Of a stretch of DNA of 44,182 nt, positions 1 through 44,068 are shown in pieces (the stretch's first letter is position 1; each line of letters opens with the position of its first letter). A model generated the notes under the pieces. The model was not told the DNA's origin. It saw only the letters and a program-made list of their open reading frames with translations, and ran no database searches. Made by a program: the position numbers and the translations under genes. The stretch is from a virus. The DNA is taken from IMG/VR virus record IMGVR_UViG_3300031227_000104, positions 1 through 44,182 of that record. The stretch is one strand, 5' to 3'.

Positions 1-552
1 AGTCAAGACGTGATTGGTATGGGCCGCACGGAGTTGACAGGCGGAACTTGGACAAAAGATTCCTACATAGGTGTCACTGGTAAATCCAATAGTGACGGCA
101 ATGCCACTGCTAACACTGGTGGGGATAACAACGATGCGTATATGAGCTATAGGGGAATAGAAAACTTCTATGGCAATATTTTTAAGTGGGTGGATGGCAT
201 TAATATTAATGACAACATCCCGTATGCAAGCAACACGGAAACTGATTTTGCAGACGACACAGACACAGCTTATACCAGACTGACCGATACTGGTGGCAGT
301 GGGATTACACTGCATAACGTTAATGGATACCAAACGACATTAGAACAAACAAAAGCAGGGTTTCTGCCGTCTGCTGTTGGCGGATCAAGCAATGAGTATA
401 TCACTGATTATTATTATCAAAATCCTGGTTGTCGTGTGGCTAGGTTCGGGGGTGATGCGAGTGCTGGGGTGAGTGCGGGTGTTTTCTGTTGGTATCTAGT
501 TGATGGTTCGGGTGTTGATTATGTGAGTGTCGGGTCTCGGCTCTGCTTCTAA
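1..552 (+). CDS. Tail fibre/receptor-binding protein C-terminus with FGE-like C-type lectin domain, DGR-target type (5' truncated)
   Basis: The reading frame is open from base 1, so the gene begins outside the window; the first internal ATG is at base 10. The visible 183 codons contain the block YRGIENFYGNIFKWVDG and end in GVFCWYLVDG...GSRLCF. This is the pattern of the formylglycine-enzyme-like C-type lectin fold found at the C-terminus of many phage receptor-binding proteins diversified by retroelements (family knowledge). The last 120 nt (431-550) hold only 10 A, against 40 A in the preceding 120 nt. That is expected if adenine-templated positions have been mutagenised. A perfect inverted repeat starts at the stop codon. 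No reverse transcriptase or template repeat is visible in the window, so active diversification is not shown. The likely role is host-surface binding at the tail tip. Confidence 0.75.
   Translation, partial: SQDVIGMGRTELTGGTWTKDSYIGVTGKSNSDGNATANTGGDNNDAYMSYRGIENFYGNIFKWVDGININDNIPYASNTETDFADDTDTAYTRLTDTGGSGITLHNVNGYQTTLEQTKAGFLPSAVGGSSNEYITDYYYQNPGCRVARFGGDASAGVSAGVFCWYLVDGSGVDYVSVGSRLCF
431..550 (+). other. Candidate DGR variable region (adenine-depleted)
   Basis: This stretch codes for the last 40 residues of the lectin domain and is strikingly poor in A compared with the flanking sequence. It ends in the C/G/T-rich stretch GGGTCTCGGCTCTGCTTC, which sits where an initiation-of-mutagenic-homing sequence would lie. 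No second, A-rich copy (template repeat) was seen in the window, so the call is by analogy. Confidence 0.45.
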
Positions 553-575
553 TTAAATTCAGAATGAATTTAATT
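551..575. repeat. Perfect inverted repeat (10-bp arms, 5-nt loop) just after the lectin gene
   Basis: The arms AATTAAATTC and GAATTTAATT are exact reverse complements around AGAAT. The repeat overlaps the stop codon of the lectin gene. A hairpin immediately downstream of the variable region is a known requirement for target recognition in the BPP-1 retroelement. There it is GC-rich; this one is AT-rich. It lacks a T-run, so it is a poor terminator. Confidence 0.6.
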
Positions 576-2346: not shown

Positions 2347-2456
2347 TAAAATCTTTGGGTTACTATATCACTAAAGAAGAAGCTGCTCAAGCTTATAACG
2401 AAGCAGCGCTTAAGTATCACGGTGAATTTGCTTTGTTGAATAAAATTGGAGAATAA
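2346..2456 (+). pseudogene. Remnant of an HNH-AP2 homing endonuclease (AP2 C-terminal tail)
   Basis: Between two genes, one frame reads SLGYYITKEEAAQAYNEAAL, then KYHGEFALLNKI and a stop. This is the characteristic end of the AP2 domain of HNH homing endonucleases (LG-x-x-x-T-x-EEAA-x-AYN-x-AA and HGEFA-x-LN). No start codon or N-terminal part is present, and the frame is closed at 2325. It resembles the AP2 tails of the intact endonucleases at 29145 and 31135. The remnant supplies the ribosome site of the portal gene. Confidence 0.75.
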
Positions 2457-2457
2457 T

Positions 2458-4467
2458 ATGACGCAAAAACTATTGAATAGCCGAGCAGCGGATTATCTAA
2501 AGAAGAAACCTCCAGGAAAGCAGGGGAGAGCAGAAAGGGTTCTTTGGACTTATATTGAGAATAGAAGGGGTGATGCTCTTGAGTCTCGGAGACCTTATGA
2601 GCAGAAGTGGCTGTTGGAACTTGCTTTTCTTGCTGGAAGACAGTATGTTTTTTTTAACTCGAGTGCTCATATGCTACAGAATCTGGAGCCTGTGCGGGGT
2701 AGGATTAGGATGATGGACAATCAGATTATGCCCAGGGTAAGAAGGCAGATTGCTGATTTTATCAAGAGTGATCCTATTATGTCTGTGGTGCCGAGCTCGA
2801 CAGAAGATGAGGATATTAAGGCGGCCAAAGCTGGGGATAAGTTCTTGACAAGTTTTTGGCAAAGCAACCGGATGAAGAGAAAGACAAGGCAGCTGGCTGG
2901 TTGGCAGTTTACTACCGGAAATGTCTTTCTGGATCATCGGTGGAATAGAAAGATTGGGCCTATTAAGCTGGATGAAAAGACAGGGAATATGGTCTATCTG
3001 GGAGATGTTGATGCAGGGATTTGGTCTCCCTTTGAAATTTTGGTTCCAGCGGTGACTATGGGAGATATAGATCTGCATAGCTTTCCTTGGATGATTAAGA
3101 ATAAGTGGAGAAGTGAGGAGTATTTTGCTGAGAACTATGCTAAGGGAAGTATGGTTCCGGCAGAAGGTATGCCTTCGTCTTTGATGGATACAAGTTTTAT
3201 GCTTGGGGGTGGGACTGGAACTCAAGCAAGGAAGTTTCCTGGGGCTATGCTTCTTGAATATTACCATAAGCCTGATAAGATTTTTCCGAGAGGACTGTAT
3301 TGTGCTGGTGCTAATGGGATTATTTTGGAGACCAGGGATTATCCCTATACAAAGTTCAACACAGAGCATTTTAAAGATGTAGATATTCCCGGACAGTTTT
3401 GGGGAAAGGCAACCATGGAGGATGCTATTCCTCTGCAGAAAACCTGGAACTCAACGCTTTCGGATATTCATGAGTTCAACCGGACAATGGGGAGAGGAAA
3501 GTATCTTATTCCTGATAAGTGTAATTTCCGAATTGAGTTTGATAATGTTACAGGACAGCATATTTACTATAAGCCGGTTATGGGAGCTAAGCCTGAGCTT
3601 CTTTCTATGAAGAATATGCCCACAAGTTTTACAGGGACGCTGGAACTGACTTGGAATTCGCTGAACAATCTTTTCTCTCAGCATGAGGTTACTCAAGGAA
3701 CAAATAAGAGTGATATTAGGTCTGGGGAAATGGTTGCGATTCTAAGGGAACAAGATGCTCATGGAGCTATCCCAAGCCACCAGATTTTCGAGGAGGGTCT
3801 CGAGGGATTTATGTCTGGAGTTTTGCAAAGGGTTCAGAAAGGATATGATCAACCGAGAATGATTAAGGTTGTGGGGAGGGATAGGGAGATTGAGGTAGCA
3901 AGTTTTGGGGCTGCTGATTTGGCTGGGAATACTGATGTAACTGTGAAAAAGCAGTCAAGTTTGCCTGATTCGAGAATAGCGATAGAAGCTCAAATAATGG
4001 ATCGGTTTACGAGAGGACTTTATGGTGATCCTCAAGACCCTGAGGTGAGAAGAAATGTAATGAATATGCTTGACGATGCTGTTGTGAAGGATATTTATTC
4101 TGGAGCTAAAAAGGATGAGGCTGTGGCTCAGTGGGAAAATAGGTTGTTGGCTCAGATAGACCTTCCGCCTAATGTTTATGATAATGATGCTTTGCATATG
4201 AAAATTCATATGGAGTTTCAAAAGAGTATGGACTACCAGAAGCTTAAGCTAAACGACCGAAAGCTTTTTATTGAAATTGAGGCTCGATTTTTGGCTCACA
4301 ACGTGGTTCATCAAAAGAGGGTGACTGAGCAAAGAGAAGCGATGCTTCGAGAACAAGCAATGTTGAAAGGAGGAGGCAGTGGAGGAACAAGTGGAAGTGG
4401 TGGAAGCGGAGGAAGCAAAGAGAAAGGCGGAGGGGGAGGCAAGACTCAAGCTGGAGCAGGAAAGTAG
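2458..4467 (+). CDS. Portal protein
   Basis: The 669-residue product has features of podovirus portals. An N-terminal helical region carries RRPYEQKWLLELAFLAGRQY and VRRQIADFIKSDPIMSVVPS. Later come the ISP-type wing segments and GTNKSDIRSGEMVAILREQD in the stem region, then a long C-terminal helical barrel. It ends in a glycine/serine-rich tail (about residues 638-669). Twelve copies would form the DNA entry channel at the capsid vertex. I chose the ATG at 2458 because GGAG lies 6 nt upstream; an in-frame TTG at 2446 is possible. The scaffold candidate and capsid genes follow, the usual morphogenesis order. Confidence 0.85.
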   Translation: MTQKLLNSRAADYLKKKPPGKQGRAERVLWTYIENRRGDALESRRPYEQKWLLELAFLAGRQYVFFNSSAHMLQNLEPVRGRIRMMDNQIMPRVRRQIADFIKSDPIMSVVPSSTEDEDIKAAKAGDKFLTSFWQSNRMKRKTRQLAGWQFTTGNVFLDHRWNRKIGPIKLDEKTGNMVYLGDVDAGIWSPFEILVPAVTMGDIDLHSFPWMIKNKWRSEEYFAENYAKGSMVPAEGMPSSLMDTSFMLGGGTGTQARKFPGAMLLEYYHKPDKIFPRGLYCAGANGIILETRDYPYTKFNTEHFKDVDIPGQFWGKATMEDAIPLQKTWNSTLSDIHEFNRTMGRGKYLIPDKCNFRIEFDNVTGQHIYYKPVMGAKPELLSMKNMPTSFTGTLELTWNSLNNLFSQHEVTQGTNKSDIRSGEMVAILREQDAHGAIPSHQIFEEGLEGFMSGVLQRVQKGYDQPRMIKVVGRDREIEVASFGAADLAGNTDVTVKKQSSLPDSRIAIEAQIMDRFTRGLYGDPQDPEVRRNVMNMLDDAVVKDIYSGAKKDEAVAQWENRLLAQIDLPPNVYDNDALHMKIHMEFQKSMDYQKLKLNDRKLFIEIEARFLAHNVVHQKRVTEQREAMLREQAMLKGGGSGGTSGSGGSGGSKEKGGGGGKTQAGAGK

Positions 4468-4720
4468 GAAGAAAACCTTAGCCGAATGCGCTCAAGCTTG
4501 GAATGGTTTTATTAAGGGATTGCTGCAGGCCCAGCATAGCTGGAATAAGTACTGCGAATTTACTTTTAAAGGTGGGGTGAAAATCGAGGAGTATTCCCTG
4601 GAAATTCAAAAGATTATCTATACGGCTAATCCTCATGGGGAGTTTTCATTGCTTGTTGATGATTTGCTTACAAGACCCCCTGTAAAAGAATTTCTTATCA
4701 GTCAATTACTTAAATTTTAA
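4379..4720 (+). CDS. Hypothetical protein overlapping the portal tail
   Basis: The frame opens at a GTG at 4379, 3 nt after a strong AAAGGAGGAG site, and overlaps the last 89 nt of the portal gene in another frame. The portal's GGA/GGC-rich Gly-Ser repeat becomes a Glu/Val/Lys-rich helix here (EEQVEVVEAEEAKRKAEGEA). The rest continues as an ordinary-looking sequence to residue 113 (AQAWNGFIKGLLQAQHSWNK and onward). The non-overlapping part fills an otherwise empty gap between portal and scaffold candidate, which supports it being real. Its function is unknown. Confidence 0.55.
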   Translation: MEEQVEVVEAEEAKRKAEGEARLKLEQESRKKTLAECAQAWNGFIKGLLQAQHSWNKYCEFTFKGGVKIEEYSLEIQKIIYTANPHGEFSLLVDDLLTRPPVKEFLISQLLKF

Positions 4721-4721
4721 G

Positions 4722-4734
4722 TCGGCGAAGCCGA
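4722..4734. repeat. Triloop hairpin TCGGC-GAA-GCCGA
   Basis: A perfect 5-bp stem closes a GAA loop just upstream of the AAGGAG site of the gene at 4751. It is one of six similar GGC-triloop-GCC hairpins in the window. Confidence 0.75.
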
Positions 4735-4750
4735 AAAAGGAGAAACGATT

Positions 4751-5626
4751 ATGCCAGGAACAAAAGGTGCCGGGGATCAAGGAGCTGGCGGAGGCCAGGG
4801 AGATGGCAACCCCACACAAATCCAGATTACAGTGGGTGATGAGACTAAAATGGTATCGGCAGAAGAAGTAGCTACAGCAATGGCTAAGGCCGGTAATTTT
4901 GACAGTACAAACGAGAAGTTTGCTCCGTTTAAAAAGGTTTTGGATGCTTATGGAATTGATTCAAATGAGTATTTGAGGAATAGCGAAGCAAGTTTTGCCC
5001 TGATGAATCAACTGATCTCTCAGGGAGTGATTGATGAACAAGGAACTGTTATTAATAAAAAGGCTGGGGATGGTGATAACAAACTTGTTATTCCGGTAAA
5101 GCCCACGGGTAAAGGCGACGAAGGTTCGAAAGGGAAAGCCACTCAAGTAGTGCTTGATGCGTTAACCAAGATTGGTGATCGCATGACTAAAATTGAGGAT
5201 GGCCAGTCGAATATTTATCGCAGGAATATCAATCAAGATGTTAAAGCTGTACACTCCAACCTTGATGATGATGATATTTCCAAGATTTTGGCAAAGGCTC
5301 AAGCGGATCGAAGCGTAAGCTTCTGGGATCACGCTAAGGCTGCGTCAGAAGCAAAAGTGGTAAGTGTAGGGCAGACAGAACTAAGTCATGCGAAGAATAC
5401 GATTCAGCTTCTTATTAAAGCTGGGGTACTCGAAGAGGGAAAGGTTGATCTGGAGAAGCTTGACTTAACGGCTTTGAAAGAGCAAGATCCTTCTAAAGAT
5501 CCTCCAGTTCATGAGGGGAAGAAGTTTATGTTCGCTTCTCGGCGAAGAAAGTTGGGCAAGGCTGCCGAAGAGTTCACGCTGCCCGGAGATTCAATGAAGG
5601 AAATGTTAGATAAGAACTTAGGATAA
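4751..5626 (+). CDS. Scaffold-position protein (putative capsid assembly scaffold)
   Basis: The 291-residue product is acidic and Gly/Lys-rich at the N-terminus (GDQGAGGGQGDG), largely helical in the middle, and ends in a basic-to-helical C-terminus (FASRRRKLGKAAEEF, then SMKEMLDKNLG). It lies between portal and major capsid genes, which is where scaffolding proteins are encoded, and its composition fits. No specific family is recognised. An AAGGAG site precedes the ATG. It would direct capsid protein polymerisation and leave or be cleaved before packaging. Confidence 0.6.
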   Translation: MPGTKGAGDQGAGGGQGDGNPTQIQITVGDETKMVSAEEVATAMAKAGNFDSTNEKFAPFKKVLDAYGIDSNEYLRNSEASFALMNQLISQGVIDEQGTVINKKAGDGDNKLVIPVKPTGKGDEGSKGKATQVVLDALTKIGDRMTKIEDGQSNIYRRNINQDVKAVHSNLDDDDISKILAKAQADRSVSFWDHAKAASEAKVVSVGQTELSHAKNTIQLLIKAGVLEEGKVDLEKLDLTALKEQDPSKDPPVHEGKKFMFASRRRKLGKAAEEFTLPGDSMKEMLDKNLG

Positions 5627-8416: not shown

Positions 8417-9343
8417 ATGAAAGCAGAAGCCCCCGAAGAAACTCGCAAAGAAATATCATTCTACGAACAGCTTTGCGGTATAGATATTATAGACCCTATT
8501 CTCAATCTTTGGCACCAGGGAAAAATGAGTGCAGGACTTGATGGAAAGTTTCGTCTCCATGAGGAGCTTGCTATCAATCGTCTTTGGATATTTGGTGCTT
8601 TTTGTCCCCATAGAGACTGCACCAAATGGGCTACCATCTATCATGACTATTATAAAATCCTTTCCCCTCCCTGCAAAGATTGTTGGAAGGTAGTTATGGC
8701 TCCCCAAACAATTCTCGAACTTATTGAGATTCAAAAGCTTCAAGACAAGCTTAGCTGGCCCTCAAAGGCTGGACCGGAACAACGAGACTACACAAGTGGT
8801 CTTGGAGGCTATCGAGCCTTCTGGTACTGTCCTTTTGGAACAGGACTTGAGGGTGGGAGAAAACATTTCAAACGAGTCCAAAAAGCTCTTGAAGATTGGT
8901 TTGGGATAGAAAAAATAGCCGAGTATCTCAAAGCTGGTCTACTCTATCTCAAGCGTGGTTGTACTGAGCTTGAGCGAGACTTCGGCCCCTCCGACCAATG
9001 GGATGAGATAGATCACACGGCTAAATTTAATCTTCTTGAGACTGTGTGGGAACCTTCCGCTAAGCGTCTCGATCTCACAAGAGAGTTTAGTCCCTTAGTC
9101 TACACCAACTTTAAGCGTTGGATTGAGTTTGCTATAGCCCATGGAGATCCCTCAGTTTGTCAGCTTATCGGCGGAGGGCCTTTGGGTGTCCCGGCAGTTA
9201 AGTACCATAACTCAATACACTCAGGAATGGATTTTAAAGCCAGGGTAGATCCGTTAAATGGAACAATGGAGGATGAAAATGCAAAGGGAGAAGATAAAAC
9301 AAAGGAAAAGGATTTGTTTGGATTTGAGCATGCAGAGGGCTAA
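8417..9343 (+). CDS. Hypothetical virion-region protein with CPHRDC/CKDC motif
   Basis: The 308-residue product has a Cys/His cluster (FCPHRDC, then HDYYK, then CKDCW at residues about 62-92) that probably binds zinc. A Trp/Tyr-rich globular part follows. No family is recognised. The final 40 residues are polar and charged. They begin at RVDPLNGTMED, encoded by dispersed dyad copy 2, which suggests the C-terminus was extended by that element. It overlaps the start of the next gene. The AAAGGAG site supports the ATG at 8417. Confidence 0.6.
   Translation: MKAEAPEETRKEISFYEQLCGIDIIDPILNLWHQGKMSAGLDGKFRLHEELAINRLWIFGAFCPHRDCTKWATIYHDYYKILSPPCKDCWKVVMAPQTILELIEIQKLQDKLSWPSKAGPEQRDYTSGLGGYRAFWYCPFGTGLEGGRKHFKRVQKALEDWFGIEKIAEYLKAGLLYLKRGCTELERDFGPSDQWDEIDHTAKFNLLETVWEPSAKRLDLTREFSPLVYTNFKRWIEFAIAHGDPSVCQLIGGGPLGVPAVKYHNSIHSGMDFKARVDPLNGTMEDENAKGEDKTKEKDLFGFEHAEG
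9241..9271. repeat. Dispersed dyad element, copy 2
   Basis: The core ATCCGTTAAATGGAA, centred at 9256, is a diverged dyad. It is read in frame as DPLNG inside the gene ending at 9343, and lies 23 nt before the start at 9279 with GGAGG in between. Confidence 0.7.
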
Positions 9344-17001: not shown

Positions 17002-20000
17002 ATGCCAGAACTTATCGACCGTATGAGCGAAGAAGAAATGACCCAATACGAGGATCAGGGAAACCCAAGTCTTGACCGAATGGATCCTCGAGAAGCTCCA
17101 ATTGAAAGAATCTCGGGCGATCCGTTTAATGGATCAATCGAGGGGAAAAAGGAGGTTCCTCTGAGAGATTGGGAGAAGGATTTGGCAGAATGGTCTCCGA
17201 ATGTCTATGCAGGGATGAGGGCTATGGTGCTGGATCTAATTCCCTTTGCTAACTATGTTGTTCTTCCTTCGGCGAGGGATGAGTTTTTAAAGCTTGATCA
17301 AGAAGAACAGACCCAAGCTCTTCTTTGGGAAAGTCTGGGAGCAGCTCTTTGGGGAAGGTTTCCCCGGTTAGGGACTGACGCTAAGTATCTCTTTGGAGTG
17401 GGGGTAAAGAAACCCCTAAGGGCTCTTGGAAAGCTGCTGGGAGCCGAGGTTAAACAAGCTAAGGTAGTTCCCTATGAGGATGCTGTGAAAGGACTGGAAA
17501 GTCTTGTAGGGAAGGATAAGATTAAGCCTTTTGTTTGGGCAGAAGAGGCTCAGAAGAGACTTGTGAACAGAGGGTTTGGGAAGGATGAAGCGGAGGCTGT
17601 GGTAGGAAGTATGGCTTCGGGAAGTGATGATCCGCTGCTTAATCTAATTGTGGAGAGAAGATATCGAGGGAAGACAACTACGAAGGAGTTTCAAAAGGCA
17701 ACCCATTGGAAGACTGGGGGAACCTACCCGAAAAGAGTGCTGAAGAAAGAGCTTGTTGAGGAATTTGGAGAGGATGTGTTGAGGGCTAAGTTTTATGGGA
17801 AACAGTTTGAGAAACTTCTTGTCCGAGATGTCTTGAAGGTTAAGCCCACAGAAAGGACTACAGATTTTATCTTCAAAGCTCATCTTGATCGGCTCTATCC
17901 AAAGAAGATTGGGGCAGGTTTTGGAGATGTTACTCCAGCTCAAATGAGCAACATTCTTCTTGATATGATGGAGCATAAGGCACTAAGCTGGCAAATTCAA
18001 CACCCAACGATTTTGGCTACGTTTAAACCTGCAAGGGTAGTTTTCGGGTATGGAGAGAAGGTGATGGGAACTCTTTCTGGAATCTATGCTCCTCTTAAAG
18101 CCTCGTTGGGAAGGATGAATAAAAGCTACTTTAACAATTCTCTTCTTTTTTCAAAAATGCTTGAGCAACGAGGGGTAGGAAAGGTGAAGATTAAGGAGAG
18201 TGGGGAATTTCTTTTCAAGAGGACGAAGTGGGCTAAACCAGCAGTCTTTGATGAGGCCTATAAGGTGATGAGAAAACTTGATGAGCTATCTCAAACAGTT
18301 TCGAGGACGAAAGGAAAGGAAGCCGTAGAGGGGCTGAGGACTGAGATGGGAAGGGTGGCTAAGGCTGTCTCTCCTGGGGCTAAGGTTATTATAGAGACCG
18401 CAAGAGTCTATTTGGATCATCTCTATGGGGAGCATGTTAAGCTTCAAATCCCCAGATTGTTTAGAAAGGCTAATCTTACTCGGTTGGGTCAAGCTAAGGT
18501 AGATGAAATGCTTACCGGGCCTGGAGGTTTAAACTACGCTGTGGATAGACTTTTCTCTACTGCCAGCGGAAAGAATCCCACAGAAAAGATTGTAGGAATG
18601 AAAGAGCTTCTTGGAAAGGTAACAGAGAAGTTGACCTTTCAGGGGGAGACTCATCCGTATTTTATGGCCGAAGGAAAAGAGCTTGGGGTAGTTCTTAAGG
18701 GCGGTAAGAATAAAGCTGGGCGATCGATCCGAGGTTTAGAACAAGAACTTGCTTGGACTAAAGGTGGGTTCATGAGGTATCTGGATAATTATGTGGCCAG
18801 AGTCTCAAAGCATGAGGATGCCCTCTTAAAGCGATGGAGAGGAGGCCTCTTTAAGGAACAGTCCGCTTTTCATACCAAGCTTAGAGAGCTTGAGAAACAA
18901 AGAGGAGCTCCGGTAGACTTTGGAACTATGATTCAAGCAAGGACTATGTCTCATGCTAAGGAACATTTTCTCTACGACAAGCTTGGAGAGGTGGTGAAGT
19001 TTACTGAAGGACTGCCTCCAGCTTGGATTGAGTATGCGGAAAGTTATTTCACTGGAATTCTGGGAGTTCCCACCGTGTCTGACTATAAGCTGGCCCAATT
19101 TTTTACCAAAACTATTGGTGGATTGACAAGAATGATGGGGAAAGGGGAGGGACTTTGGAATGAAAAAAGAGTTATCAATCTGGCCTATAGTGTAAACAAC
19201 ATGGTCTATCTTGGTGGTCTTGGGTTTAAACCTTTTAGTGCCGTGAGGAATCTCTTTCAACCTCTTCTTACTGTTCCCGGAGATCTTGGTGGGGTTAAAG
19301 ATTTAGGAAAGTTAGCCGAGGGATACCGCTGGGCATTCAACCCAAAGAACCGAGCCTATATTCGAAGCATTGGAGCAATCACAGAGTATGCTCCTGAGAT
19401 TCATATGAGACCAAGAATGCTCCAAATAGGAAAAGTAATCAAAGGAAGGGAAATGCCTACTCTTGAGAGCCTTCGAGACACAAGTATGTGGATGTTCAGA
19501 GGTTCGGATAGGTTTAATAGGTATGTTACTGGGGGAGCAGCTAACATCAAGTGGGATAGGCTTGTGAGTAAATTTGGTGGTGAGGTTAAGCCTCAGTATG
19601 TGGGAAGGTTCTCGAAGAAACTTGGGTTGGATAAACGGTATGAGTGGAGCAGAGCAGATGTAGAGGATCTTCTCTACAGAGGGAAGACAGGGGAAGCCAA
19701 AGCCTCTTACATCAAAGATGTTATCTCGGATACTCAGTATCTTTATGGAGCTGCAGAAGCTCCGGTGGTGTTGAGAAAGTATGGAGCCATAGGTCGAACA
19801 GGGGCAATTTTTCAGAGCTGGTGGATGAACTACGGAACGCTGCTTCAGAAATGGGCGACCACAGGGGCAAGTCCTGGGGCTAAGGTTGAGCGAATTTTCA
19901 CTGCAATGATGAGTCAGAGCATGGCTTTTATGCTTATGGAACCACTTTGGGGTAAGGCTACGGCAGCAAGAGGAACAGCTCTTGGGCCGTTTCCGGGAGA

Positions 20001-22862: not shown

Positions 22863-23071
22863 CAGCTTCTTCCAGTCTTTCTCCAGTAATCAATCTGCAA
22901 AGCCATTCGACAAAGTCTCGACAGCTTCAAAAACTCAGCCCGAATGAACCGAGGGAGAACCATATTCCTACTCAGGTGTAGAAAACTTCCCTGCGCTGCC
23001 TTCAAGGTTCCCTTGGCTCGAAAGCGCTCAAACTGCTCAATCTGCTTCTGTGTCCGAATCCGTTTGCTCAT
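22862..23071 (-). CDS. Small basic hypothetical protein
   Basis: The 69-residue product is rich in Arg and Lys (MSKRIRTQKQIEQFERFRAK). It is coupled to the polymerase gene by a TAATG overlap with GGAGG just upstream. It may bind nucleic acid or act with the polymerase, but no family is recognised. The upstream extension to 23104 lies within the polymerase gene and has no ribosome site. Confidence 0.6.
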   Translation of the reverse strand: MSKRIRTQKQIEQFERFRAKGTLKAAQGSFLHLSRNMVLPRFIRAEFLKLSRLCRMALQIDYWRKTGRS

Positions 23072-25590
23072 TAGGCTGCCTCCAATTCCTTCAGTTGTCC
23101 CCAACTATCCGGGCTCCACTTAAAGTCTACAGGAATGTCAAGCTCTTTTCCCTTAATCATCAAAGGAAAGTGAGAAACCTCCGTAATCCTTTTCCGACAC
23201 TCCTCCAAATCCTCAGGCCTACATTGTCCTACCACTTCGTCATGCGAGTTAAGAAGAATCTCTACCTCCGGAATCTCCTGCCAAACTCTTTGTATAGTCA
23301 TCTCAGTCATTTCCCCAATAGTATTCTGGGGCTTAAAAGCGTAGGCTGCATTGTAAAGAGCTGGCCCAAACCTTCCCATGAACTCTCTTTTCCTCCCAAT
23401 CGCTGAGATCAGAGTTCGGGTTGCCCTTACCTCGTCTCGGATTTCTCTCTGCCAAGCAAGAAGGAAAGGATTTCGAGCCTTATGGGTTTCCAAGAAAGCC
23501 TTACACTCACTGAACTCAAAGATAAATCCCTGTACAGCCAGAACCTCTTGAAGCTTGTACGGCCCCATACCGTAGTTACCCGCGTGAACAATAGTCTTCC
23601 CAATATCCCTATACTCTTTGAGAGTGTGTTCCTCTTTTGTAATCGCATCTCGCCAAAGAGCTTTAGGAAGATAGGCTACCGTCTCCGGAATCCCAAAGAT
23701 TCTCTTTGCATTATACCAGTGAACATCAAACCCGTTGAGAAACATCTGGATTCTTTCTTGGTCTCGAGAATCCCAAGCAACATACATAGCCTCTGCTTGT
23801 CTTCTATCTGAAGCTATAAGAACCATCCCCTTATCCGGGATAAAGAGCTCTCGAATCAGTCTCCCCTCCTCAGAACGGACAGGAATGTTTTGTAGGTTCC
23901 CCCCTTCCCTGTCTACCTTAGTCCAACCTCCAAAGGGGGAGGAGGAAGAATTCATCCTCCAAGTGGAGACAAGAGAATAAGAAGTCCTCACCCGACCGTC
24001 CGAGTCTAACTTCATATCGGCATAAGTAGAGGCGAGCTTGGAGAACTTTTGATAGTCAAGAATTGCCTCAACAATTTCCCCATTTGTGGTTCCTCTATAC
24101 TTCCTCTTAAGCTTATTCAGCGCATTCTTATCCGTAGTAACCTTCTTGGTTGTCCTCTTAATCTGAAGATCTAACCCAAGAAACCCATAGAGAAGCCTAC
24201 TCTTCTGCGTATGAGAGTTGAGATTTATATCCATCTTAGTCAAGTCGACTACAGTTTGTTGGCATTCAGAAGCTCGCTTAGTAAACCGTTTGCTAAGCTT
24301 TTCTTTCTTTTCCCTATTTATCCTTACCCCTCGGATAGTCATACCAAGGTGACTCGGCAGAATACTCATAGATCTTTTATACCCCTCATAAGTCTGAAGC
24401 TCTTTTGCGTTAGCCACAGTGATGGGATAGATTTCTCTTGTCACACAACAGTCCTTCCCGTTGTATCGAAACTCAGATTCATCAGTCCTACTCCCTACGT
24501 TAACCCTCCCTTCATCCTTATAGTAAGGCTCCCAGGTATACATAGAACAAAGAACTTCAAGACTCTTCCACAGGTAAGGATAGCTCGCATGGTGGCAGTA
24601 CATGGTATCCCCATAGGTTCCCTCGGCTACCCTCAACCCATAGTATCTACCAAGAATAGCCAGATCGTACATGCCTCCCTGAAAGATTTTCCTCATATCT
24701 GGGGAAAGAAAGATTTGCGAGATCAACCTCCAAAGATGAGCCTCTTCCTCCAACGTCCAAGCAAAGGCCCCTCTCCGCAGAATCGGAACAACAAAAGCCC
24801 AATTAGGTTTCTCTCCAAAACCAATACACCAGACTATAGGCCCATGAGTTCCCTGCAAGGTTTCTATATCGCAGGAGAGATACGGAGGTTTAGTCTTTAA
24901 AACCCACTCAAGTCTCGAGACAAGCTCTCCATAGCTCAACGAAATCTCGTACTTTCTCTCCGGTGGGGCATAGTTTGGGTTTTCTGCTTGCATCTTAACC
25001 CTATCCATGTCAACCTCAAAGAGGGGTAGGGCATTCTGACTCCGCTCCTTCTTCATCCCCTGAAGCTTCACCCCCTCCTCATTCATAGTTCTCATCACAT
25101 GACTCGGGTGCAAGCTTACATAAACCTTAAACCCAGGAACCAATGTACAAGGAAGGATACTCCCCCTCCACTTATAACTCCGTTTCTTCCCGGTCAGATG
25201 ATACATAGGAGTCCGCCCCAAAGCTACGAGAACATTCGGCCCCTCTCCTGTAGCCTTTCGGTGGGCAAGAAGTTTTTCAAGCCAAATCCTCAGCCGCTCA
25301 AGGTGTTCCATTCCTTCCCAAGTTAGCCTTGTCCTTTGCTTCGGCCCTTTATCCTCATAAAAATAAGATACAAGATTATTCGGAGGTCTCTGGTTAAAGA
25401 TATTCCCCACGAGAGATTCCGAATAGGTAATCCTTTTCTTAGCAAAAACCCGCTTCATAAACTGTCCCGCAGCTCCCACAAAAGGAGTACACAAAATATC
25501 CTCATCCTCCCCAGGAGCTTCGCCAATAAAGCACATTCGAGCATTCTTTGGGCCTATAGGTTTGACTACATTAGTAGTTAATTTTTGCAT
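23071..25590 (-). CDS. Family A DNA polymerase with N-terminal uracil-DNA-glycosylase-like domain
   Basis: The 839-residue product has three parts. Residues about 18-200 resemble family 4 uracil-DNA glycosylase: IGEAPGEDED at 22-31, NIFNQRPPNN, then SLHPSHVMR; the usual N-terminal CxxC of the Fe-S cluster is absent. The 3'-5' exonuclease follows with SCDIET and YNGKDCCVT. The polymerase domain has motif A as SDRRQAEAMYVAW, motif B as RDIGKTIVHAGNYGMG and motif C as NSHDEVV. In motif B a His sits where E. coli Pol I has Phe762. I chose the ATG at 25590 because it follows GGAAGGAGAGGA; the ATG at 25623 lies in dyad copy 4. It is the main phage replicase. Confidence 0.92.
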   Translation of the reverse strand: MQKLTTNVVKPIGPKNARMCFIGEAPGEDEDILCTPFVGAAGQFMKRVFAKKRITYSESLVGNIFNQRPPNNLVSYFYEDKGPKQRTRLTWEGMEHLERLRIWLEKLLAHRKATGEGPNVLVALGRTPMYHLTGKKRSYKWRGSILPCTLVPGFKVYVSLHPSHVMRTMNEEGVKLQGMKKERSQNALPLFEVDMDRVKMQAENPNYAPPERKYEISLSYGELVSRLEWVLKTKPPYLSCDIETLQGTHGPIVWCIGFGEKPNWAFVVPILRRGAFAWTLEEEAHLWRLISQIFLSPDMRKIFQGGMYDLAILGRYYGLRVAEGTYGDTMYCHHASYPYLWKSLEVLCSMYTWEPYYKDEGRVNVGSRTDESEFRYNGKDCCVTREIYPITVANAKELQTYEGYKRSMSILPSHLGMTIRGVRINREKKEKLSKRFTKRASECQQTVVDLTKMDINLNSHTQKSRLLYGFLGLDLQIKRTTKKVTTDKNALNKLKRKYRGTTNGEIVEAILDYQKFSKLASTYADMKLDSDGRVRTSYSLVSTWRMNSSSSPFGGWTKVDREGGNLQNIPVRSEEGRLIRELFIPDKGMVLIASDRRQAEAMYVAWDSRDQERIQMFLNGFDVHWYNAKRIFGIPETVAYLPKALWRDAITKEEHTLKEYRDIGKTIVHAGNYGMGPYKLQEVLAVQGFIFEFSECKAFLETHKARNPFLLAWQREIRDEVRATRTLISAIGRKREFMGRFGPALYNAAYAFKPQNTIGEMTEMTIQRVWQEIPEVEILLNSHDEVVGQCRPEDLEECRKRITEVSHFPLMIKGKELDIPVDFKWSPDSWGQLKELEAA

Positions 25591-25609
25591 TCCTCTCCTT
25601 CCATTCTCT

Positions 25610-25640
25610 CTCGATGATTCCATTTAATGGATTAAACGAG
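25610..25640. repeat. Dispersed dyad element, copy 4
   Basis: TTCCATTTAATGGAT, centred at 25625, with outer CTCG/CGAG pairing. It lies between the ParB-methyltransferase stop and the polymerase ribosome site, 35 nt before the polymerase ATG. Confidence 0.85.
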
Positions 25641-25649
25641 CAGAGTACC

Positions 25650-27362
25650 TTAGCAAGTCCGGTCTTTAACCAACTCTTTTCTCCAGTCAAGCATAGCTTG
25701 TTGACTTTCAGGATTCTCCTGCCAGTATCTTGTCCAATCTTCGGTTCCTGGTTTGATAAGTTTAAAATCTGTGGGGATAGGCTTAGCTTGCCAATCTTTG
25801 TGCTGGTAAGTCTGTCCTTCCTCCGGGGTCTCTTTTCTGGCTACTTCGGCGTATCCTTTAGCCAAGTTGAGAAGTTCAAGATTTCGATAATCCTCGTCGA
25901 TTTCAATTTGAAACCAGTTAAGGGCCAAGGTTGCCTGAAGACTCTCTGCTGCTACCCCAAACATACCTGAGCCTGCCATAGGGTCGAGGATTGTATCTGA
26001 GGGTTGGGCTGAACGGAGAAGAAGTTCCTTGTAGATTTGGGGATGCTTGGCTGAAGGATGAATGTCCTTAAGGGATGGGGTAGGCATTGGGGTAGGGATT
26101 ACATCTGGCGCTCCTTGTTTGACCAAAGGCTTGGAGCCTTTTCTTGCGTAGGCGATGGGCTCATAGGATCGGCCTGGCCAAACCAGAGGGTTCCGAGTCA
26201 CATGGGCTCCCACTTTGTGCCAAATTAAAGGCATATGGTTAGTTTTGAAACCAACCTTTTCTAAGGTGTTATAAACAAAGGTTGCTGAGACTATCCCAAA
26301 AAACATATAGAGATGGGAATCCGGTTTCATCTTTTGGTAGATAAGGGTAAGCCAACTCTCAAGGCTTAGCCAAAACTTATCCCAAGAGTCTTCGTATTCT
26401 TTAGTCCCAGGATTTGGCTTTGAAACCTTGTCGAACTCAACTCCCCAGGGTGGATCAAAGCAAACAATGTCAAAGCTCTCGTCTTTAAACCCGAGAAGCT
26501 TCTCCTCCATCTTTCCAAGGATACATCGTTTGCTATAGTAGACAAGCTGCTTTTCCAAAGCAAGCTCCTTGGCTGCCTGGCCCTGCAAAATCTCATTCCC
26601 AGTTAGACTCTTTATCTCCTCCCGGTGTTTTGCCCACTTTTCCTCTCTCTTTTTGTCTTGGAAGGTTGCCTCTGCTCGAGCTTGTTCAGTTAATGGAGCT
26701 TGCTCGGAGACAGAAGTCTTTTGGGCTCCAAGAGCCTTGACGAGAAGCTCTTGCCTTTGGACTTGGGTAACAAGGCGTTTGGCAATCTTCTTAGCCGTGG
26801 TTTTATTGGGTGCTGCAGCAACCTCAGGGATAGAAAGAAACCCCGCAAGGATAATATCTTCTTGAAGAATTGATTTCCCTATCCCTATGTGAGCTGCTGT
26901 ATCCTCATAGCCATGCCCTCCCATTTGGCCAGGAGAGGTCTTGCCAAAACGCTCTTGAAGTACGTTGTGGAGTCTTTCTTGAGCCTTAAGTTTCTCCTTC
27001 CATTCGAGATCCTCTCGACATAGGTTCTCATCAAGCTGAATTTGCTCGAGAAGAAGTGGATCTGTGATTTCTTCTTTGACATAATACTTGAAAGGAGTTT
27101 GGAGGAAAAGGCAAGCTCGAAGCCTCCGTTCTCCAACAATAAGTTCAAGAGCCCCCTCTGGGTTTGTATAACATACTCCAGGTTGAGTTTGTCCTGTTTC
27201 TCGGATTGAGTCAATAAGCTCTTCGAGAGGTTTTCGCTTGAAGAGTTGCCTATGCCGATCATCTCGGACAAAGATTTCAGATGGGTTTCGGGCATAGATT
27301 GTTTCTTGAGGTTTGGGTGCCGCTTCGTTAAGACTTGGTGCTGATCCTAAAATTTCAGTCAT
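25650..27362 (-). CDS. ParB-like domain fused to DNA methyltransferase
   Basis: The 570-residue product has an N-terminal ParB/Srx-type nuclease-fold domain (VGERRLRACL, with GERR at 77-80) and a helix-turn-helix-like stretch at about 140-175 (EDTAAHIGIGKSILQEDII). After a charged linker comes an N6/N4 methyltransferase: catalytic DPPW at 303-306, then IHPSAKHPQIY, then SAM-binding DPMAGSG at 460-466. Catalytic motif before SAM motif is the beta-class order. Such fusions are common in phages and probably protect phage DNA from restriction. The ATG follows GGAGATAGAG. The specificity is unknown. Confidence 0.88.
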   Translation of the reverse strand: MTEILGSAPSLNEAAPKPQETIYARNPSEIFVRDDRHRQLFKRKPLEELIDSIRETGQTQPGVCYTNPEGALELIVGERRLRACLFLQTPFKYYVKEEITDPLLLEQIQLDENLCREDLEWKEKLKAQERLHNVLQERFGKTSPGQMGGHGYEDTAAHIGIGKSILQEDIILAGFLSIPEVAAAPNKTTAKKIAKRLVTQVQRQELLVKALGAQKTSVSEQAPLTEQARAEATFQDKKREEKWAKHREEIKSLTGNEILQGQAAKELALEKQLVYYSKRCILGKMEEKLLGFKDESFDIVCFDPPWGVEFDKVSKPNPGTKEYEDSWDKFWLSLESWLTLIYQKMKPDSHLYMFFGIVSATFVYNTLEKVGFKTNHMPLIWHKVGAHVTRNPLVWPGRSYEPIAYARKGSKPLVKQGAPDVIPTPMPTPSLKDIHPSAKHPQIYKELLLRSAQPSDTILDPMAGSGMFGVAAESLQATLALNWFQIEIDEDYRNLELLNLAKGYAEVARKETPEEGQTYQHKDWQAKPIPTDFKLIKPGTEDWTRYWQENPESQQAMLDWRKELVKDRTC

Positions 27363-31101: not shown

Positions 31102-31132
31102 CTTCATGGTTCCATTTAATGGATCACTTCTC
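31102..31132. repeat. Dispersed dyad element, copy 5
   Basis: TTCCATTTAATGGAT, centred at 31117, has diverged outer flanks. It fills the gap between the end of the HNH-AP2 gene and the ribosome site of the gene starting at 31076. Confidence 0.75.
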
Positions 31133-34293: not shown

Positions 34294-34819
34294 TTTCCTC
34301 TCCTTCTTTATCCTCGATGAATCCATTTAATGGATTAACCCTGGTTATCTTTTCAGCACCTACTTTTGCTTCCCCTTGGGGACCGACTTTTCTTTCCCAT
34401 TCCTCGATGATCTCTACAAAGTCTTGGTCTGAGATCTGGTTTGAGGAAAGAGCAACTTGGGCTATAGAAGAGGCTTCGTCAAGAGAAGAGGCGGAAAGAA
34501 GATTATCCAAGACAAAGGTCTCAACAAGGGAGAATGCGAGGAACGGCTTTGCCGCTGGGGTGAGGTCTCTGCAGAGTACTCGAAGGGTGGAGGCAGATTC
34601 TCGAGTAACTCGGAAGTACAGCTTTTGACCTGAGGAGGTCAGATGGGTGTAGAGGTAAGACCGGATAGAGGTTATTCTCTCCGGGGTATCTGTGATGGTA
34701 AAGGCAGAGCCTGGGCGAAGGGCTTCGAGGGCAGGGATAATGTTAGCCAAGACTGATTGGCCCGCCTGGGATAGGGTTCGGGTTTTATAAGCTTGGTTTA
34801 AAGACTTCTGGTTGCTCAT
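34271..34819 (-). CDS. Hypothetical early protein
   Basis: The 182-residue product starts MSNQKSLNQAYKTRTLSQAG after GAAAGGAGAAAG. Its central part (TDTPERITSIRSYLYTHLTS, then LYFRVTRESASTLRVLCRD) has a helix-strand alternation that may contact nucleic acid, but no family is recognised. The C-terminal tail beginning VNPLNGFIED is encoded by dyad copy 6 and ends in a Glu/Gly-rich run, again suggesting extension by the element. A triloop hairpin sequence lies within the gene. Confidence 0.55.
   Translation of the reverse strand: MSNQKSLNQAYKTRTLSQAGQSVLANIIPALEALRPGSAFTITDTPERITSIRSYLYTHLTSSGQKLYFRVTRESASTLRVLCRDLTPAAKPFLAFSLVETFVLDNLLSASSLDEASSIAQVALSSNQISDQDFVEIIEEWERKVGPQGEAKVGAEKITRVNPLNGFIEDKEGEENGEGKEA
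34313..34343. repeat. Dispersed dyad element, copy 6
   Basis: ATCCATTTAATGGAT, centred at 34328, is a perfect 7-1-7 dyad. It is read in frame as NPLNG at the end of the gene above and lies 35 nt before the start at 34293. Confidence 0.85.
34544..34554. repeat. Triloop hairpin CGGC-TTT-GCCG (inside a gene)
   Basis: A 4-bp perfect stem with TTT loop lies inside the coding region 34271-34819. It is the only member of the family that is not in a leader or intergenic region. Confidence 0.5.
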
Positions 34820-35873: not shown

Positions 35874-35917
35874 TCTCTAAGCAGTCTCTAAGCAGTCTCT
35901 AAGCAGTCTGGAAGCGA
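35874..35917. repeat. Four tandem 11-bp iterons
   Basis: Three exact copies of TCTCTAAGCAG are followed by a diverged fourth (TCTGGAAGCGA). The 11-bp period places each copy on the same helix face, as for initiator-binding iterons. The repeats lie 50 bp from the poly-A tract. Confidence 0.85.
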
Positions 35918-36230: not shown

Positions 36231-36261
36231 CTCGATGGTTCCGTTAAATGGAATAATTCTG
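36231..36261. repeat. Dispersed dyad element, copy 7
   Basis: TTCCGTTAAATGGAA, centred at 36246, keeps pairing through changed bases (TTCC/GGAA instead of ATCC/GGAT). It lies in the control region, just before the 54-bp-spaced dyads, and is not followed by a nearby start codon. Confidence 0.75.
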
Positions 36262-36390
36262 GGTACAAATTTTTGAATTCTTCTTATGTAATGATTTCGA
36301 TAGGTTACGAAAAGTGGTTCAAATTTTTGAATCCTTCTTTTCCAATGATATTGGGGAGTTAGAAAAAACGGTACAAATTTTTGAACTTTT
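36262..36390. repeat. Three dyad sites spaced exactly 54 bp apart
   Basis: GGTACAAATTTTTGAA (36262), GGTTCAAATTTTTGAA (36316) and GGTACAAATTTTTGAA (36370) are nearly identical. The middle copy holds a perfect dyad, TTCAAA-TT-TTTGAA. The first two copies share further similarity downstream. GGGGAGTTAGAA also occurs twice (36353 and 36458). They are candidate operators or origin sites. Confidence 0.85.
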
Positions 36391-37509: not shown

Positions 37510-37540
37510 CAGAAGCGATCCATTAAATGGATTGATGCAG
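37510..37540. repeat. Dispersed dyad element, copy 8
   Basis: ATCCATTAAATGGAT, centred at 37525, is a perfect 7-1-7 dyad. It lies 80 nt upstream of the rightward promoter's -35 box, so here it would not be in the transcript from that promoter. Confidence 0.85.
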
Positions 37541-37604
37541 GTTTAAGGTGGGGGGAGTCTGGGGAGGGAGGGAAAATTAATGGGGTTGATTGGGCCAAAG
37601 AAAT

Positions 37605-39970: not shown

Positions 39971-40876
39971 TGGAAAAACTTATCAAAAACGAGAAGATGC
40001 GGTTAGCTTTAGAAGAGCATATAGGGGTGGAACGTCCTGGGGCAGAAAGCTTTCTTATGGATGCTATGGAGGTTGCTGCACAAATGTTGGGTTTGCCTAT
40101 GGGTATGATGAGATACCGAGGAGCTAAGAAAAGTGTAGCAGCTGCATTGGCTAAAAAGATGAAACCTGTGAAGGGAACTTACCACGAACCTTTCGTTGGT
40201 TCAGGAAGCTCGCTTCTTAGGGTTGGGAAAGCTGGGAAGTTTGAAAAAGCTATAGTTTCCGATAAGAATCCTCAGGTTACAGAGTATCTTAAAGAGATTA
40301 AAAAGGATCCTCAAGGAGTTAAAGAAAGTTTTCTACGGTTTAGTGAGGGACTTATCCAAGGGGATAAGGGGGAAAGTACTCAAAGAGGATATTCCTTTTA
40401 TAAAAGAAGTTTGGGGAAAGCTTAGTAAAGGAACCTATGAAGGAGCTGATAAAGCGGGAGCTCACTTGTTTCTTGGAAATTATAACCGTGTGTATATGCC
40501 TGGGGAAATACCTCGTGTATCTCCTGGGAGCTATGTTTCGTCTAAGAGTGTAGCACAAAAGATTGATGATCTTGGTGAGGTTATGCAGAAGCGGAATGTT
40601 CAAATTAAGACTCAAGGTTGGGAAGAAAGTTTAAAAGATATTAAACCAGGAGATTTTGTAAATTTAGATACCCCTTATCTGAAAACTTTTGGCTACCCAG
40701 GTATAAAAAGTACTACCGCCGCAGATCACGCTAAAATGAGTCAGTTGCTTGAGGAAGTAAGTGGAAAGACTTCGGGGATTGTTTACAACTCTCCAGTAGG
40801 GGCGAAGGAATTTCCTTGGCTTGAGTTTGAACCAACAGGATTGTTGAGGGGAGAAGAAGTTGCTGGACAATGGTAA
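39970..40876 (+). pseudogene. D12-class (Dam-like) adenine-N6 methyltransferase split by a frameshift
   Basis: Two overlapping frames together make one enzyme. Frame one (39970-40425) has MRYRGAKKSVAAALA and the SAM-binding motif YHEPFVGSGSSLL. Frame two (40343-40876) has KVLKEDIPFIKEVWGKLSKG, HLFLGNYNRVYMPGEI and the catalytic LDTPYLKTFGYPG, a DPPY-type motif. Sense passes from one to the other around the run AAGGGGGAAAG at 40366-40376, where one extra base breaks the gene. It could be a natural mutation, programmed slippage or a sequencing error. If intact, it would methylate adenine, possibly at GATC. Confidence 0.8.
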
Positions 40877-42725
40877 AGCTATTTTAGGCCAAATACCAAA
40901 GGATTATAGGGAGAATTTAGCCTGGAGGAGAGGGATTCTTTCCAAGTCTCGGAGGGATCTCATTTTCCGGGCTAAGGTTAAAGAGCTCTTTCATAGGGAT
41001 ATCATCTTTGCTTTTAATGCTTTTTTCTATACTCTTGATGTAAGGCGAAGACCTTTTCACCACCAACCTTTCTGTACCTATAAGTATCAAGAAGAGAAAG
41101 TCCTTCTCCCCTTAGTGGAGGCAATCAATGGAGGTTGGGATTGCCCTATGGAGAAGAGTAGGGATATGGGAGCTTCTTGGCTTGTTATCCTTACCTTCCT
41201 GTGGTTCTGGTTAGACCCAAAAGGTGGGACAGATTTTCTTTTAGGCTCTCGTATTGAAGACTATGTAGACAAGAAGGGGGATATGAGGACTCTTCTTGAG
41301 AAGGCCAGGTATACGCTGAGGAAACTCCCCAAGTGGCTGCTTCCCAAGGGGTTTGTATGGAAGAAGCATGATAACTTTATGAGGCTGCAGAACCCTGAGA
41401 CTGGAGCTTCGATAACTGGAGAGAGTAACAACGCTAACTTCTCGACTGGTGGGCGATATGCTGCAGTTCTCTTCGACGAATTCGCTAAGTGGGAAGGAAC
41501 TGATCGAGCAGCTTGGATGGCTGCTGGAGATGCGACACCGTCTCGAATCCCAGTATCTACTCCATTCGGGGCTGCTGGTCAACATTACGATTTAGTCACC
41601 GATACTACAAAGCGGAAAATCCGCCTTCACTGGAGCCTTCACCCAAGAAAAGCCGAGGGAGCCTATTGCAACTGGCCGAGAAAAAAGGATGATGAGGATC
41701 TCGAGGGTGAGGGTTTGGAGACCCTAATCCGGAGTCCTTGGTACGACAGGGAATGTCAGAGAAGATCGGCTTTAGAGATTGCACAAGAGCTTGATATCGA
41801 CTATATTGGGGCAGGTCGCCCGGCTTTTGATGACAAAGCGGGCAAGCGGGTAGGAATCCTTCTGAAAATTGGTCGAACACCTGAGACTTACTATGACTTC
41901 AATCTGGGGGGCTTGGAGTTGATTGACGTAGGCGGGGTGCGAGACTCTGAAGGATTCCTTACCGTTTTCCGGAAACCTAAAAAGGAGGATTCCTATGCGC
42001 TCGGAGTTGATGTAGTCGAAGGGACGGAAGATGGAGACTACGCAATTGTTAAAGTTCTCAACCGTAGGACTAAAGACTGTGACGCCAGTTATTTCTCACG
42101 GATTAACGAGGTTGAGCTTGCTCGTATTATCAAGATTGTTGCCGACTTCTATACCACCACCGATGCTCCCTGGGTGGGAATAGAAACAAACTCCCCAGGC
42201 CTTGCTACCTTTGATTTCTGTTTTGAGATCTACGACGTAGAAAACCTCTTCATGATGCCTATTTTCGACTCTGCAAAACAATCCGTAAGCTTCAAGAAGG
42301 GTTGGAGGACTACGGAGCCGAGTCGAAAAGTCCTGGTTTCAGGGGTGAAGAATTGGCTTCTTGAGAAACAGGGATGGGGAGATTCTCGGCTTTGCCGGGA
42401 GATGACTACCTTCGTTATAAATAAGAATCAAAAGCCTGAGGCTAAGTCCGGCTGCAATGATGATGAGGTTATGGCTTGGGGAATAGCAATCCAAGTAGAC
42501 CTTATAGCCCCTGAGGTAGACTATGTGGCTCCCAGAAGGCTTCGAGAAGATGGGCTTTCCCAAGAGATCTTCAGGCCTAAAAAGATTGAGGGAGAGCCAG
42601 AGACTCTGGAGGAAAGATGTCTTGCTTGTGCGTTGAAGCGACGAGAAGAGAAAGACTTAATAACCCATCACGGCTCGATTGATCCATTTAATGGATCGGT
42701 TGAGTATGGGTGGGTAGAGAGCTAA
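40860..42725 (+). CDS. Terminase large subunit
   Basis: The 621-residue product has an adenine-binding and Walker A region (EKSRDMGASW, 98-107), Walker B AVLFDE (202-207) and coupling motif STPFG. A C-terminal RNase H-like nuclease follows (ALGVDVVEGTEDGDY with Asp383; VGIETNSPG; NDDEVMAWGIA near 530). It powers DNA packaging and cuts concatemers. The start is a TTG overlapping the methylase remnant by 17 nt, after GAGGGGAG. The last residues, DPFNGSVEYGWVES, are encoded by dyad copy 9 and lie beyond the usual end of the nuclease domain. Confidence 0.92.
   Translation: MLDNGKAILGQIPKDYRENLAWRRGILSKSRRDLIFRAKVKELFHRDIIFAFNAFFYTLDVRRRPFHHQPFCTYKYQEEKVLLPLVEAINGGWDCPMEKSRDMGASWLVILTFLWFWLDPKGGTDFLLGSRIEDYVDKKGDMRTLLEKARYTLRKLPKWLLPKGFVWKKHDNFMRLQNPETGASITGESNNANFSTGGRYAAVLFDEFAKWEGTDRAAWMAAGDATPSRIPVSTPFGAAGQHYDLVTDTTKRKIRLHWSLHPRKAEGAYCNWPRKKDDEDLEGEGLETLIRSPWYDRECQRRSALEIAQELDIDYIGAGRPAFDDKAGKRVGILLKIGRTPETYYDFNLGGLELIDVGGVRDSEGFLTVFRKPKKEDSYALGVDVVEGTEDGDYAIVKVLNRRTKDCDASYFSRINEVELARIIKIVADFYTTTDAPWVGIETNSPGLATFDFCFEIYDVENLFMMPIFDSAKQSVSFKKGWRTTEPSRKVLVSGVKNWLLEKQGWGDSRLCREMTTFVINKNQKPEAKSGCNDDEVMAWGIAIQVDLIAPEVDYVAPRRLREDGLSQEIFRPKKIEGEPETLEERCLACALKRREEKDLITHHGSIDPFNGSVEYGWVES
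42674..42704. repeat. Dispersed dyad element, copy 9 (best extended stem)
   Basis: GATCCATTTAATGGATC is centred at 42689. Thirteen consecutive positions on each side can pair if G-U is allowed (CTCGATTGATCCA with TGGATCGGTTGAG) around a 5-nt loop. It overlaps the terminase 3' end and lies 69 nt before the next gene. Confidence 0.9.
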
Positions 42726-43173: not shown

Positions 43174-43425
43174 ATGAATATTGGAGCTAAGATTATAGGG
43201 AAGGTGAGAGAAAGTCTCTCGGAGGATAATGGGAATCTTTCGAGTATGCGAATTTTAACCGCCTTGGTGGTTGTAGTGGTTCTGGGGAACTGGACCTATA
43301 TTAATGTGACTACCGGGGTTTTGCATGGATTTGACTGGCAAGATCTGGGTGTGATTCTGGGGCCTTTAGGCGCAAAGACTTGGCAGAAGGGTAAGGAAGG
43401 AGGGAAAGCTGATGAGGTTTCTTAA
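43174..43425 (+). CDS. Holin-like phage membrane protein
   Basis: The 83-residue product matches a common phage pattern: an amphipathic start (VRESLSEDNGNLSSMRILTA), one strong transmembrane helix (ALVVVVVLGNWTYINV), then FDWQDLGVILGPLGAKTWQK and a charged tail. Proteins of this form next to terminase genes are usually annotated as holins. It starts after GAGGAG and overlaps the next gene by 14 nt. This is the second holin-like gene of the window. Confidence 0.6.
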   Translation: MNIGAKIIGKVRESLSEDNGNLSSMRILTALVVVVVLGNWTYINVTTGVLHGFDWQDLGVILGPLGAKTWQKGKEGGKADEVS

Positions 43426-44056
43426 GCTGTTTGGAAGTTGGTTAGTTGTAGGGTTGCTAAGTTTGGGTTTGGCAGGAACGGGTTTGGCTTGGGATCAGGG
43501 AACCTGGGATGGTTCGAAGCTTAACCAATATAAAACTATTTATATCGACGCTGGAGCCCTTGTACCCTGCACAACAAATGGAGCACTTGCAGGTACTTAT
43601 GAGTACGGTACGCATGACTTAGATCATGATTATTATGCTTTCGATGCCGGAGCTACCGAAGAGAGGGTACAGTATAAAAGCCCGATGCCTGAAGATTGGG
43701 ACAGGGGAACTGTTAAGGTAAAATTTTACTGGTCCTCAGCAACAGGTAGTACCGCAAATGATACTTGTGAATGGGGAGTTAAAGCACAAGCATTTTCTGA
43801 CAGCGATCCTAATGATGCGGCCTTTGCTGATGCAGGAGAGGTTATTAGTGATGTTTTGTTAGCTGATGCTGGAGCAGATGCTCAATTAAGTGACGCAACC
43901 CCAGCGGTCACTGTTGGCGGGTCTCCTGCTTTGTCCGATATGATAGTTTGGGAAATCTATAGGAACACGGATGGTACAGATGATATGGCGGAGGATGGCT
44001 GGTTAAAAGGGATTGCCATACAATATAAAGCCACCAGTGCTGTAGCTGCATGGTAA
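43412..44056 (+). CDS. Secreted beta-sandwich protein
   Basis: The 214-residue product begins with a clear signal peptide (FGSWLVVGLLSLGLAGTGLA, cleavage near LAW). It then has a beta-sandwich-like domain (YYAFDAGATEERVQYKSPMP, VKVKFYWSSATGST, MIVWEIYRNTD, IAIQYKAT). The mature domain resembles a module often found in phage tail or fibre regions. A signal peptide on such a protein is unexpected and suggests export to the host envelope or a borrowed reading frame. It lies near the receptor-binding genes if the genome is circular. Confidence 0.65.
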   Translation: MRFLKLFGSWLVVGLLSLGLAGTGLAWDQGTWDGSKLNQYKTIYIDAGALVPCTTNGALAGTYEYGTHDLDHDYYAFDAGATEERVQYKSPMPEDWDRGTVKVKFYWSSATGSTANDTCEWGVKAQAFSDSDPNDAAFADAGEVISDVLLADAGADAQLSDATPAVTVGGSPALSDMIVWEIYRNTDGTDDMAEDGWLKGIAIQYKATSAVAAW

Positions 44057-44068
44057 GGGAGAAATCTG

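Follow-up and report, generated by a model that had tools for sequence, protein, structure and literature searches.

Does the adenine-poor end of a phage tail gene mark the target of a diversity-generating retroelement (DGR), and if it does, where are the reverse transcriptase (RT) and the template repeat (TR)? This question is raised by a viral DNA of 44,182 nucleotides (IMG/VR record IMGVR_UViG_3300031227_000104, positions 1 to 44,182), hereafter the window, which opens inside an adhesin gene. An earlier note on this DNA, made from the letters alone, had proposed a DGR-like variable region (VR) followed by a hairpin, with no RT in the window. The features at this end of the window are as follows.

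1-552, + strand: tail/adhesin protein, C-terminal 183 codons with a predicted C-type-lectin-like fold, matching phrog_5302; the 5' part lies off the contig end.

430-549, + strand: DGR variable region, the A minimum of the + strand, with an A-site signature against the TRs of relatives.

532-549, + strand: IMH-like end, GGGTCTCGGCTCTGCTTC, identical in the homologue L005 and, over its last 12 nt, in L010 and L013.

550-576, + strand: perfect AT-rich hairpin with a 12-bp stem and a 3-nt loop, overlapping the stop codon, identified by folding and a stem scan.

The A-poor segment was reproduced, with positions 431-550 holding 10 A, 16 C, 50 G and 44 T and positions 311-430 holding 40 A. Intervals of 120 bp on the + strand contain 33.2 A on average (sd 6.2), and in a scan of the 44 kb, 431-550 was the sole place on that strand with 10 or fewer. 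Base composition is all that could be read from the window alone, and to that extent a G+T-rich lectin end that arose by chance or codon bias, with no link to a DGR, would suffice. This explanation is given a negligible probability in view of the adenine-site tests, the VR/TR/RT loci of homologues and the TaqVP fold, all of which stand against it.

An alignment-driven search with the tail protein yielded 80 related IMG/VR loci. Of these, 49 have an RT bearing the DGR-like motifs IGNYLSQ and YCDD/YMDD just downstream on the same strand; a TR was recognised in 48 of the 49, in almost every case in the interval from the VR end to the RT. When VR/TR pairs were pooled, changes were found at 981 of 1466 TR-A sites (67%) versus 84 of 3334 other sites (2.5%). 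The best PDB match of the RT profile was 8ub7, 'Reverse transcriptase' (E 6.7e-55), which we take to be the BPP-1 DGR RT; its E value is over 30 orders of magnitude better than those of group II intron and antiviral RTs. Six contigs (L020-L023, L025 and L033) have 447-bp gene bodies that are 100% identical and VRs that differ at 13-20 of 120 bases. Such VR variation over identical bodies indicates that the DGR is active in nature within this tail-protein family.

The window VR aligns without gaps and in register with the 120-nt VRs and TRs of relatives. Compared with the TRs of ten relatives, it is changed at 74-82% of TR-A sites versus 20-38% of other sites (Fisher p 1e-8 to 2e-4). The window's A-sites were taken to be the 26 positions that are A in most relatives' TRs; at these, the window reads 8A/1C/13G/4T. 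It thus carries A at 8 of 26 inferred A-sites versus 1 of 62 positions where the TRs have no A (p 1.7e-4). Adenine mutagenesis predicts this pattern, and composition alone is insufficient to explain it. Strong support for the earlier proposal comes from the relatives that carry TR and RT and from the adenine-site test in the window itself, and 430-549 is a genuine DGR variable region at the tip of a receptor-binding tail gene.

The ORF at 1-552 matches phrog_5302, 'tail protein', with E 5.7e-35, and its nearest homologue, L005, is 79% identical in the shared part. The cut 183-aa piece alone gave a poor predicted model (pLDDT 59); an AlphaFold model of the 401-aa domain of L005 reached a pLDDT of 82 and a pTM of 0.89. 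TaqVP (5vf4) was the sole significant solved-structure match of the L005 model (E 3.5e-6) and also the sole solved structure reached by profile (E 1.2e-4). PDB entry 5VF4 is TaqVP, the DGR variable protein of a Thermus aquaticus prophage (PMC6328139). The variable protein is accordingly modelled with a C-type-lectin fold. TaqVP and the L005 homologue share 16% identity, with a TM of about 0.45; a further difference is that the DGR of TaqVP comes with a VR, an IMH and an accessory gene of its own.

The ORF ends at 532-552 in GGGTCTCGGCTCTGCTTC-TAA, a letter-for-letter match to L005, and the two relatives that share the last 12 nt of GGGTCTCGGCTCTGCTTC, L010 and L013, are both RT-bearing. Several relatives have TRs that end in an A-bearing counterpart, CAGCTCAGCTTA. 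The IMH-like tract that had been described at the VR end holds up; it is GC-rich, and 12-18 nt of it are the same as in relatives' VR ends. The hairpin that follows, TAATTAAATTCA-GAA-TGAATTTAATTA, is the only perfect stem of at least 9 bp (loop 3-7) in the 44-kb window, and its folding z is -3.7. It is present right after the VR and perfect, as the earlier note had said, but its stem is 12 bp long and not 10. Its role as a DGR feature was not borne out, a perfect stem of at least 7 bp being found at the same place in only 6 of the 49 RT-bearing relatives. The known BPP-1-type DGR hairpins, which lie downstream of the VR, are GC-rich and 7-10 bp long with a 4-nt GRNA loop (PMC3240598). The window hairpin was rejected as a DGR hallmark on account of its AT-rich stem, its 3-nt GAA loop and its lack of conservation in most relatives; it is unusual for the window genome, yet it is no evidence for a DGR.

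Other repeats and fused genes were observed in the window. A dispersed short palindromic repeat with the core ATCCATTWAATGGAT occurs in at least nine copies, on both strands and often at gene ends (2025-2050, 9248-9274, 17112-17137, 25610-25635, 31102-31127, 34313-34338, 36231-36256, 37518-37547 and 42674-42699), and is possibly a binding site or a small repeat element. Tandem repeats at 36262-36390 (three units, 54-bp period, GGTACAAATTTTTGAA...) and at 35874-35915 (11-bp period, TCTCTAAGCAG) are intergenic and located where the coding direction switches. On the - strand, 23071-25623 encodes a family A DNA polymerase and an N-terminal uracil-DNA-glycosylase-like domain in one ORF, and 25650-27362 encodes a ParB N-terminal domain fused with a DNA methylase domain.

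The statement that the window contains no RT was confirmed, as neither PF00078 nor a 12-sequence DGR-RT profile returned anything from it; as a positive control, PF00078 detected 9 of 9 RT-bearing relatives. The same applies to the TR. The best place in the window has 31 non-A mismatches in 120, shuffled VRs have a mean of 31.3, and whether the full VR or 40-nt pieces of it are used, the best candidates in the window stay at the shuffled-VR level. No A-rich near-copy that fits the window VR was found in a scan of 80 RT loci, where the best had 17-18 non-A mismatches; the best TR found anywhere was that of L001, at 17 non-A mismatches, which is no fit. An IMH-based pattern search for a template gave no match, a TR-form pattern search returned already known loci only, and no second copy of the window gene body with a different VR was found. 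A search of genome contigs gave a single match, a 3.7-kb contig of a Cloacimonadota MAG; no host was assigned, because this sole match ends before the VR. A complete autonomous DGR, with TR and RT in the same genome, was thus not found in the window, outside of which lies about 1.1 kb of the genome.

Three further features bear on what that outside part contains.

2446-4467, + strand: P22-like portal, the right synteny anchor, 70-77% identical in L083, L084 and L085.

40860-42725, + strand: terminase large subunit (Pfam Terminase_6N), the left synteny anchor, collinear in L083 and L085.

43518-44182, + strand: upstream part of the exchanged cassette, 98.9% identical to L003.

In three related phages (L083, L084 and L085), the terminase module and the portal are neighbours, with the portal about 5.5 kb after the terminase module in L083 and L085; in the window they are found at the right and left ends. 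L003 is a contig of a phage that is otherwise unrelated and encodes a lambda-like tape measure. It differs from window positions 43518-44182 at 7 of 665 bases (98.9% identity), the last difference being 123 nt before the window end, and is 100% identical to positions 1-73. In L003 both window flanks are in line, separated by 1,079 bp; the lectin frame reads through. This arrangement suggests that the window and L003 are products of a single assembly that merged the sequence they share, and that what is missing is the adhesin gene's 5' part and not a hidden RT. Synteny and L003 together identify the window as a nearly full phage genome that was opened within the adhesin gene and probably lacks about 1.08 kb, a gap size (about 1.1 kb) taken from another phage, L003.

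The cassette portion at 43518-44182 consists of the 3' part of ORF 43412-44056 and the 5' part of a 149-aa ORF that starts at 44069. Because the L003 homology begins inside ORF 43412-44056, the cassette has moved between unrelated phages; its junction within this ORF is sharp. At the place of the window's adhesin, L083 has an unrelated-looking ORF (4493-5407), the end of which resembles DUF1566-type lectin domains; as a guess, this resemblance suggests that adhesins can be swapped in and out of a slot between terminase and portal.

The possibility that the TR and RT of the window genome sit in an unassembled stretch between the contig ends draws on a record that is linear and without end repeats, and on a terminase-to-portal distance of 5.5 kb in L083 versus 3.5 kb plus the gap in the window. 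It conflicts with the position of the RT, which is downstream of the VR and on the same strand in 49 of 49 relatives, on a side where the window is contiguous, and with the in-line flanks and continuous lectin frame of L003. We regard it as very improbable. As the genome is near-complete by synteny and by the recombinant L003, an adjacent RT and TR probably do not lie past the window, and the option left by the earlier note, that they lie beyond it, is unlikely given the L083/L085 synteny and the 1,079-bp gap in L003. The window genome probably lacks both RT and TR, because the contig would represent nearly all of a circular or permuted genome with its cut in the adhesin gene.

The window shares this condition with other members of the family. 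Besides the window, 19 relatives with at least 2.5 kb of downstream sequence have no RT or TR, and about a third of the tail-protein relatives with enough downstream sequence have neither. The age of VRs was gauged by the frequency of A at fourfold-degenerate third positions, which were used because protein selection does not hold them. Among 14 RT-bearing relatives, A occupies 5 of 329 such sites in the VR versus 322 of 928 in the gene body; among 11 RT- and TR-less genomes (the window and ten others), the counts are 8 of 239 (3%) versus 228 of 742 (31%). The window alone gives 1 of 22 versus 15 of 61, a small count. With this fresh imprint at synonymous sites, the RT-less VRs were probably copied from a template recently. 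L028, with A at 4 of 21 fourfold sites in its VR, looks like a decaying relic.

An old relic, with the DGR lost in the distant past and the VR by now evolving slowly like any ordinary lectin tip, would explain a window without TR and RT, and natural losses are visible in L004, where about 20 nt of the TR start are left, and in L020 compared with L021. In such a relic, however, A should return at synonymous sites, where the window has it once in 22 and the eleven VRs at 3% of sites, versus 31% in the body; this reading is improbable. L020 and L021 are 99.85% identical over 10.6 kb, and 1.1 kb with TR and RT is missing in L020. The TR and RT were apparently deleted naturally at a GGGCAG microhomology (L020 10616-10947 versus L021 10616-12063), although the deletion may be an assembly error, and the L020 contig stops soon after. 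In L051, the stretch after the VR matches what follows the TR in L053, and L012 is like L015 only until 13 bp past the stop codon of the VR gene. In a gene-body tree, RT presence is scattered and support near the window is weak; therefore, the tree does not date the loss.

We consider it highly probable that the window carries a fresh VR on a lectin-fold adhesin, written by a DGR and later separated from its TR and RT. An error-prone RT would have copied an A-rich template into the ligand-binding tip of the adhesin, randomising the template adenines, and this tip would have been made recently by mutagenic retrohoming. The target cassette would then have parted from TR and RT by deletion or recombination ending at the VR, with parallels for separation at the VR end in L004, L012, L020 and L051. 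Recent loss, or transfer of the cassette away from the VR's TR and RT, is the most likely course. The IMH-like end is intact, and rewriting would require a related TR and RT acting in trans, supplied by a host, a prophage or a co-infecting phage.

Helper-dependent diversification goes further, with the phage keeping the target only and the TR and RT coming from the host, a prophage or co-infecting phages. Relatives without RT and TR are numerous, the closer ones with a fresh imprint even at synonymous sites, and the cassette is common to an unrelated phage at 98.9-100%. L001 (10635-10754) and L002 (4703-4822) have a TR adjoining the VR and yet no RT in their 50-kb and 71-kb contigs. For some orphan VRs, the TR of a different phage fits, with 2-4 non-A mismatches over 110 nt (L012/L015, L006/L098, L067/L062 and L066, and L079/L042). 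L012 and L015 come from the same sample, 3300005613; this pair was rejected as proof of trans action, 4 non-A mismatches being the expectation at 94% body identity. For phage BPP-1 in the laboratory, TR, avd and RT work in trans from a plasmid (PMC3240598). On the other hand, recent separation explains each case equally well, the contigs may be fragments, no two RT-less genomes that share a body but differ in VR were found among the relatives, and no TR matches the window. Helper dependence is a tentative possibility, and it is doubtful that phages of a community exchange RT-less DGR cassettes that are diversified by the TR and RT of hosts, prophages or co-infecting phages. Fresh RT-less VRs are compatible with recent separation as well as with ongoing supply in trans; the phage has either just lost RT and template or borrows both from a helper.

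Phage DGRs of the BPP-1 mtd type resemble the window in the C-terminal VR of a tail adhesin, the A to N pattern, the GC-rich IMH-like end and the C-type-lectin-like fold, and the window's relatives have a TR and a DGR-type RT. They differ from the window, in which no TR or RT was found and whose hairpin, not conserved in relatives, has an AT-rich stem and a 3-nt loop. To our knowledge, the RT and VR of remote DGR targets share one genome, whereas no RT at all was found in the window phage genome. Remote-target DGRs are like the window in having a VR that does not adjoin the RT, and RT-anchored DGR surveys miss targets away from the RT (PMC8144416).

DGR targets as such are well established; a fresh VR in a near-complete phage genome without RT and TR is less charted. 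In the open-access literature, no earlier account was found of phage targets without an RT being diversified in trans, which is weak evidence of novelty. If RT-less targets are equally common in phages generally, the reach of targeted hypermutation in phage populations is underestimated, and existing metagenome reads would allow a test of whether one DGR serves several replicons in nature. The helper-dependent reading, if true, would amount to helper-dependent hypermutation of receptor binding.
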